Below, in pieces: positions 36,349 to 37,128 of a stretch of 37,128 bases of DNA (within the stretch, counting starts at the first letter, position 1; the number at the start of each line of letters is the position of its first letter). The DNA lies in NCBI GenBank assembly GCA_013205405.1, contig JABMMZ010000098.1:1-37128 (forward strand). Reading direction: 5' to 3'. Both the position numbers and the translations under genes were made by a program. The notes beneath the pieces were generated by a model. That model searched no databases. It was not told the origin of the DNA and saw only the letters and a list, made by a program, of their open reading frames with translations. The DNA is from Bacteroidota bacterium. Lineage in GTDB: Bacteria > Bacteroidota > Bacteroidia > NS11-12g > UBA955.

Positions 36349-36527
36349 TATGAGAATATTAATCCAATTTCAATCAAAATTAGCAATATTTATTACTAAA
36401 AAATATATAAATAAATATTTTTTATTTAAAAAAGTAGTCAACATTGTTTACTAATATATATATATTATTTTTGATAACTTGTGAATACAATTATTCATTA
36501 AAGCACAATCAAATTAATACTTTGACT

Positions 36528-36535
36528 TACATTTG
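36528..36535 (+). promoter_or_regulatory. Bacteroidota -7 box for the SET-domain gene
   Basis: TACATTTG matches TAnnTTTG and ends 19 nt before TTG 36555, supporting that start. The next gene, 31 bp after the SET stop, shows no box of its own. Confidence 0.45.
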
Positions 36536-36554: not shown

Positions 36555-36941
36555 TTGAGTAGTAATAAAATTGAAAATGGAAATTTGTATGTGTCCAATG
36601 CAGGACACAAAGGTAGGGGAGTGTTTACATCTAAAATTTTATATAAAGGAGATGTTATTGAAATTTGTCCTGCGATTGAGATAAGATATAAAGAGCATCA
36701 AGCATTAGTTAGTCATCAATTAGAAAACTATACTTTTGTTTGGAACACTAAAAAAAAGAGCGCTGCTATTATTTTAGGATTTGGCTCACTTTATAACCAT
36801 TCAAAAAAAGCAAATGCAGATTATATAAAAAAAGTAAGTGAAGGAGTAATGATATACAAGGCACTAAAAACAATAAAAAAAGGCGAAGAAATAACCATAG
36901 ATTATGGGGATATGCACGCTGATTTAAATACAGAAAAATAA
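36555..36941 (+). CDS. Stand-alone SET-domain lysine methyltransferase
   Basis: A 128-aa protein that is almost only a SET domain, which in eukaryotes and chlamydiae methylates lysines with S-adenosylmethionine. Motifs: AGHKGRGVFTSKILYKGDVI (16-35, the SAM-binding GxG strand), FGSLYNHS (76-83, matching the NHS knot) and GEEITIDYG (110-118, the catalytic Tyr region). It lacks the cysteine-rich pre- and post-SET parts, as small bacterial forms do. The start is TTG 36555. It lies 31 bp before a Lys/Ala-rich histone H1-like gene, a candidate substrate. Confidence 0.85.
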   Translation: MSSNKIENGNLYVSNAGHKGRGVFTSKILYKGDVIEICPAIEIRYKEHQALVSHQLENYTFVWNTKKKSAAIILGFGSLYNHSKKANADYIKKVSEGVMIYKALKTIKKGEEITIDYGDMHADLNTEK

Positions 36942-36972
36942 CAACAAAAAACCAAACCAATTATTAATCAAA

Positions 36973-37128
36973 ATGGCAACAACAAAAAAACCAGCTGCTA
37001 AAGCAAAAGCTACAAAAGCAGCACCGAAAGCGAAAGCAAAAGCGAAAGCGAAAGCGAAAGCGAAAGCGAACGCGAAAGCGAACGCGAACGCGAACGCGAA
37101 CGCGAACGCGAACGCGAACGCGAACGCG
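36973..37128 (+). CDS. Histone H1-like Lys/Ala-rich protein, partial (runs off the window)
   Basis: ATG 36973 opens a frame with no stop before the window end (52 residues seen). It begins MATTKKPAAKAKATKAAPKA, the composition of bacterial H1-like DNA-binding proteins (Hc1/AlgP type), which compact DNA through lysine tails. The coding then turns into a hexanucleotide repeat, GCG AAA units changing to GCG AAC units, so lysine gives way to asparagine and the last 48 bases are eight AACGCG copies. Asn-Ala repeats would not bind DNA well, so the end may be a collapsed or error-prone repeat. Likely co-transcribed with the SET gene. Confidence 0.65.
   Translation, partial: MATTKKPAAKAKATKAAPKAKAKAKAKAKAKANAKANANANANANANANANA
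37029..37128 (+). repeat. Hexanucleotide tandem repeat GCGAAA/GCGAAC at the window edge
   Basis: From about 37029 the sequence is tandem GCGAAA-type units that become GCGAAC; 37081-37128 is exactly eight AACGCG units. It keeps the reading frame of the H1-like gene. Base composition jumps sharply from the AT-rich surroundings. The window, and perhaps the contig, ends within it. Confidence 0.9.

Follow-up and report, generated by a model that had tools for sequence, protein, structure and literature searches.

A gene for a minimal SET-domain protein and a gene for a Lys/Ala/Pro-rich, histone H1-like protein stand next to each other on the same strand in one genus of uncultured bacteria of the Bacteroidota, and the layout of these loci gives good support to a two-gene operon with one promoter and one terminator. 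The reading that we favour, as the probable one, is that the SET enzyme methylates its H1-like partner and so tunes the binding of that partner to the nucleoid. A more far-reaching version, in which the pair is a self-contained chromatin-modification operon of environmental Bacteroidota, with a writer and its own H1-like substrate under one regulated promoter and the same functions fused in related bacteria, is put forward tentatively, its chances being a little short of even. The pair suggests a bacterial counterpart of the chromatin ‘writer and substrate’, and our searches of open-access literature brought up no description of a SET/H1-like operon in Bacteroidota.

The window, meaning the whole stretch of DNA that was analysed, is a contig of 37,128 bases (C93) from a metagenome-assembled genome of 2.15 Mb that is 83.8% complete. 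Its last 574 bases hold the whole SET gene and the first 156 bases of the Lys/Ala-rich gene. The features of the locus are as follows.

36435–36453, no strand assigned: palindrome TAGTCAACATTGTTTACTA, a possible operator, about 100–120 nt before the SET gene
36470–36487, + strand: conserved upstream box TTTGATAAnnTGTnAATA, with an exact match in 12 of 17 genus genomes
36528–36535, + strand: −7 promoter element TACATTTG, whose TAnnTTTG columns are invariant in 14/14 loci (alignment A2)
36555–36941, + strand: putative SET-domain protein lysine methyltransferase, 128 aa, TTG start, assigned from the Pfam SET match, 13 genus orthologues and the predicted fold
36942–36972, + strand: intergenic stretch of 31 nt, with neither a hairpin nor a −7 box
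36973–37128, + strand: histone H1-like, Lys/Ala/Pro-rich gene, cut by the contig end; its start MATTKKPAAKAKATKAAPKAKAK agrees with the orthologues
37042–37125, + strand: (GCGAAA/GCGAAC)n run, a probable assembly artefact in the Asn-coding part

A first-pass annotation of this DNA had described a minimal SET domain with intact motifs, and that description holds. The window protein matches the Pfam SET model PF00856 over its full length (positions 1–105 of 105; 6.9e-15, 55.8 bits against a cut-off of 22.4), and the stretches GHKGRGVF, LYNHS and EEITIDYG carry the cofactor-binding and catalytic motifs GxG, NH and EE....YG. Residues K19, G20, G22, N81, H82, E111, E112, Y117 and G118 are invariant among 13 sequences, two distant ones included; the catalytic roles that we assign among them are presumed. 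PF00856 matches a single place in the window's genome (83.8% complete), namely this gene, and a second, different SET gene is present in several relatives.

Compared with solved structures, the family profile finds S. pombe Set7 (5.7e-25) and PBCV-1 vSET (1.9e-21) at the top. An AlphaFold model built from an alignment of 28 sequences that includes viral relatives (A4) reached a pLDDT of 87.0 and a pTM of 0.79; an earlier model from a 15-sequence alignment (A3) was discarded at a pLDDT of 40.8. The predicted structure has a SET fold: its top Foldseek matches are Set7, vSET and PFL0690c, all three recorded as histone or putative histone methyltransferases, and it superimposes on vSET (3kma_A) with a TM score of 0.92 by vSET length and an rmsd of 1.8, and on Set7 (5h6z) with a TM score of 0.79–0.81 by target length. 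The gene is under purifying selection. A finite dS was obtained for 87 of 91 pairs, whose median dN/dS is 0.107; the seven closest pairs lie at 0.04–0.08 and some pairs are higher, for example L022/L030 at 0.36. The assignment to the minimal, vSET/Set7-like protein lysine methyltransferases is well supported by profile and model, and the protein would be expected to methylate lysines in a S-adenosylmethionine-dependent manner.

The second open reading frame begins with an ATG at 36973, 31 nt past the SET gene and on the same + strand, as the first-pass annotation had placed it; what needs correction is its tail, as the frame is cut by the contig end and its Asn-coding part is probably not real protein. 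This part lies in a pure hexanucleotide run (37042–37125) whose translation ends ANANAN. We regard it as a probable artefact because the 13 complete orthologues use no Asn codon (0 of 1303 codons), because GCG is rare in them (53 of 570 Ala codons), and because another contig of the same genome (C89) starts within a normal H1-like tail AKAAPKAKAKAKAAPKAKAKAKAKADPKAKAKKSAKKK, which is followed by a hairpin and then by XerD on the opposite strand. The assembler probably broke the H1-like gene in the repeat. Contig C89 may be the continuation of the window's gene, which we can only infer, because unlinked H1-like paralogues exist in two genus genomes, G009 and G014. In these genomes the second paralogue has no adjoining SET gene (L045:1203–1523 and L046:1212–1523).

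The 13 complete H1-like orthologues have the composition of a histone H1 C-terminal tail, with 37–41% Lys, 41–46% Ala and 8–13% Pro, and their net charge runs from +23 to +48; the protein is small, strongly basic and probably disordered. Its N-terminal start hardly varies, KATKAAPK being present in 14/14 sequences, and the number of repeats that follow differs widely among orthologues. We take this start to resemble the stretch of histone H3 around Lys27, a likeness that may be due to chance because so few letters are in use. A Pfam and NCBIfam scan of three of the 13 complete orthologues gave no match, hence no Hc1 domain, and the Hc1 family (PF07432) was found in 0 of 59 genomes, 17 of the genus among them, with one control genome positive. 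As judged from the three orthologues scanned, the H1-like protein appears to lie outside the Hc1 family. K/A-rich C-terminal tails also occur on other proteins in the genus, on ribosomal protein bL20 in G011 (L119:1084–1644) and on topoisomerase I in G005 (L121:1458–3020).

The likely single transcript proposed in the first-pass annotation, with a −7 box before the SET gene and none before the second gene, gains support from the sequences across the genus. The motif TAnnTTTG, which we take to be the Bacteroidota −7 element, precedes the SET gene in 14/14 loci and occurs within 150 nt before the H1-like ATG in 0/14. The window has an extra copy about 90 nt before the SET start, one of four loci with an additional copy further upstream (the others are L026, L028 and L029); a plain count of the motif misses the box of L027 because the mechanically called start of that frame sits upstream of it. 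Of the 13 exact sites of the upstream box TTTGATAAnnTGTnAATA in the 17 genus genomes, 12 are at the SET promoter. In the upstream alignment the palindrome follows the pattern TAGT[CA]AACnnn[GT]TT[GT]AC, with core columns invariant in 14/14 loci. In 12 of the 14 a change in one half-site is matched in the other (C..G or A..T), and the window and L030 are mixed; a relaxed form of the pattern finds the palindrome in all but L024 (13/14).

Minimum-energy folding of the stretch between the two genes gave 0.0 kcal/mol in 14/14 loci, that is, no hairpin. A hairpin 3′ of the H1-like stop was predicted in 13/13 relatives and on contig C89, mostly with a T-rich run after it (minimum-energy folds, taken without a shuffle control). 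With a single conserved promoter region ahead of the pair and a single hairpin behind it, the two genes would be transcribed as one unit. The genes are thus adjacent and co-directional, with a single putative promoter and a single putative terminator, and this arrangement is conserved across species.

We found a SET orthologue with 68–80% identity in 13 of the 16 other genomes of the genus (96 other related genomes were searched), and at 13/13 of these loci a complete H1-like gene of 59–126 aa lies 24–48 nt downstream on the same strand. All 13 come from metagenome-assembled genomes, carrying the names Bacteroidetes (6), Bacteroidia (2), Bacteroidota (2), Chitinophaga pinensis (2) and bacterium (1). 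Outside the genus, the 96 related genomes hold distant SET matches in two, at 30–31% identity. When 84,980 species, each represented by one genome, were scanned with the SET alignment, 14 loci came up: the 13 already described and a distant relative. The scan used two short peptide patterns and therefore reaches close relatives only.

The pair stays together as a unit while its outer neighbours change. The upstream neighbour is MarC in the window, a GNAT-type protein in seven relatives, a PurQ-like GATase_5 protein in four and a PMT_2-type protein of 491/492 aa in two (Pfam was run on two, one and one of these, respectively). The downstream neighbour is a Peptidase_M1-type protein in 12 of 13 loci by size and place, with Pfam run on two; it is partial in L020 and L026 and absent from L021, and XerD holds the downstream place on contig C89.

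For the three genus genomes without a SET orthologue (G003, G005 and G007, just 82–85% complete), a search with the H1-like start pattern gave no match. MarC, used as a locus marker, was not found in G003, and was located in G005 and G007, but other genes come next there. The joint absence of both genes is suggestive only, because the genomes are incomplete, the pattern also missed G001, which has the gene, and MarC is followed by other genes. The Peptidase_M1-type neighbour was rejected as a locus marker, its best matches in G000, G003, G005 and G007 being just 31–33% identical.

SET genes as such are common: in a sample of the phylum 177 of 395 genomes have one, and in a sample of the class 186 of 396 do. 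We examined the neighbours of a subset of these matches, 196 SET loci (90 from the phylum and 106 from the class sample; 193 distinct, the duplicates being L291/L140, L292/L142 and L294/L152), with flanks of about 1.5–2 kb per side, some cut by contig ends, and the SET frame present in all 196. The detector flags 13/13 genus loci and, after inspection of the raw hits, none of the 196 has a co-directional H1-like neighbour. Of 16 additional SET loci from the order, ten being paralogues within the genus and six others, none has such a neighbour. In the samples examined the SET/H1-like pair is a feature of one genus, so that the adjacency, whose conservation in related genomes the first-pass annotation had named as the check on its proposal, stands within the genus and falls as a general trait of Bacteroidota.

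Ten raw hits outside the genus were dropped on inspection. Five were frames over longer open reading frames (L065, L072, L158, L051 and L272), one was an RF-1-domain protein with a Lys-rich end (L161), and at L273, L299 and L332 the tails belong to the SET proteins themselves. The tenth is a real near case: at L183 (1866–3046) a DUF2934 protein with a K/A/P-rich start is convergent with the SET gene at a distance of 332 nt, and it was not counted as an operon. A wider K/A-run pattern gave matches in 25 of 97 relatives, spread over 7 of 24 genera; the loci inspected from other genera (L106–L113, L129 and L130) proved to be without an H1-like frame, and the pattern was set aside.

Lys-rich C-terminal tails are carried by 6 of the 208 SET frames in the 196 loci outside the genus, the most H1-like being those of L273 (1336–2010), L324 (1917–2390) and L332 (1888–2376). 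An H1-like part is thus a separate neighbour of SET in one group and a segment of the SET protein in others, which hints at functional coupling; the tail on a SET protein may serve the DNA binding of the enzyme rather than act as a substrate. Among viral SET loci, 0 of 31 (IMG/VR contigs, L240–L270) have an H1-like neighbour, and phage and plasmid collections hold just distant SET relatives, in 3 and 8 records. One distant SET gene sits on a contig of phage-like look (L016/L092, G093:C355), with no H1-like gene adjoining.

In the mechanism that we propose, the two proteins would be made together from one operon, and the H1-like protein would bind DNA, or other polyanions, as the C-terminal tail of histone H1, Hc2 or AlgP does. 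The SET enzyme would use S-adenosylmethionine to methylate one lysine or several in its partner, most likely within the KATKAAPK cap at the N-terminus or within the AAPKAKAK repeats, and methylation would alter how tightly the H1-like protein holds the nucleoid. On balance we expect the H1-like protein to be the substrate of the SET enzyme, and we infer an effect of methylation on its DNA binding. Evidence against a writer and its substrate comes from the restriction of the pair to one genus in the samples, from the H1-like paralogue that lacks a SET neighbour in G009 and G014, and from the charge of the SET proteins, which at +2 to +6 are weakly basic themselves, so that there is no simple charge fit with a basic substrate.

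SET enzymes outside chromatin include Rubisco methyltransferases. The two genes could accordingly be co-expressed in a shared growth state without being writer and substrate, with SET acting on another protein, such as a ribosomal protein or the tail of a topoisomerase. The basic tails of bL20 and topoisomerase I are of the same kind as the H1-like protein, which makes other SET substrates possible, and since no co-directional H1-like gene adjoins SET at the loci sampled outside the genus, SET proteins generally must have other targets. We nevertheless rate co-expression of this kind as unlikely, as the pair has been kept while the genes on both sides changed, and some SET proteins end in an H1-like tail.

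The composition of the H1-like protein is closer to that of the AlgP tail, in which Lys, Ala and Pro also dominate, and this raises an AlgP/PhaF-like tether of polyphosphate or storage granules to the nucleoid as a rival, with SET tuning the tether and not chromatin as such. In the available part of the AlgP paper (PMC9239181), the KPAA-repeat tail is likened to histone H1, and AlgP is placed on polyphosphate granules, whose spacing needs the repeats. There the tail is joined to an N-terminal domain, and in AlgP and PhaF the H1-tail-like, Lys/Ala/Pro-rich repeats are the C-terminal parts of larger proteins (PMC9239181), whereas the genus proteins consist of the tail alone, and the three scanned gave no Pfam or NCBIfam match; we consider a granule tether improbable. 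The string ‘methylat’ occurs 0 times in the accessible text of that paper.

Neutral inheritance, in which the genes met once in the ancestor of the genus and have never since separated, would explain why all cases lie in one genus and why the samples hold no independent origin of the adjacency, but it is very improbable, as the flanks differ while the pair, the −7 box, the palindrome core, the short spacing and the hairpin stayed, and as just 4 of the 91 SET pairs have a dS below 0.5.

The favoured reading, of a SET enzyme that methylates the H1-like protein encoded beside it, can be compared with several known systems. The closest solved relatives by profile and fold, vSET and Set7, are likewise small SET proteins and are given in their structure records as a histone H3-Lys27 methyltransferase and a histone methyltransferase, respectively; they differ from the genus protein in sequence, with 29–33% identity in structural alignments. 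MC1, the chromosomal protein of the archaeal system, is a folded protein and not a K/A repeat. Go1-SET of Methanosarcina mazei methylates MC1-alpha in vitro, as described in the accessible part of the report (PMC3980110), which makes it a prokaryotic SET enzyme acting on a chromosomal protein of its own cell; that system is archaeal.

In chlamydiae, too, the proposed target of a bacterial SET protein is a Lys-rich, H1-like protein of the bacterium. The first-pass annotation had named a chlamydial SET protein as reported to methylate Hc1, and the available portions of the reports disagree on this: cpnSET of Chlamydophila pneumoniae binds Hc1 and Hc2 and methylates Hc1 (PMC3980110), and NUE of C. 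trachomatis was reported as secreted and did not methylate Hc1 (PMC2904774). A paper on Waddlia speaks, in the part available, of ‘discordant results’ for chlamydial SET and Hc1 (PMC6426960), and the cpnSET–Hc1 precedent is disputed. Unlike the chlamydial partner, the genus H1-like protein shows no Hc1 domain in the orthologues and genomes searched. Its gene is directly adjacent to the SET gene in one putative operon.

Methylation of a bacterial nucleoid protein by a SET enzyme rests on few and partly conflicting chlamydial reports, as far as the accessible parts of these go. The genus described here adds a presumptive writer and a presumptive substrate in a conserved two-gene operon outside the chlamydiae. 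If our reading is right, the methylation state of a nucleoid protein would be set by a writer encoded in cis, the pairing of SET with H1-type tails would not be confined to host manipulation, and this pairing may go back to an old use of SET enzymes among prokaryotes.

The palindrome upstream of the SET gene has a wider distribution than the pair. It occurs at one site per genome, the SET promoter, in G000, G001 and G002, and gives 10–22 matches per strand in G004, G006, G007, G012 and G015; among the copies inspected, several lie inside genes or at gene ends. G007 has many copies, yet no SET/H1-like pair was seen there. We dropped the palindrome as a regulon marker and, because it is abundant and partly intragenic, left it out as evidence for function; it could be a nucleoid-organising or a mobile element.
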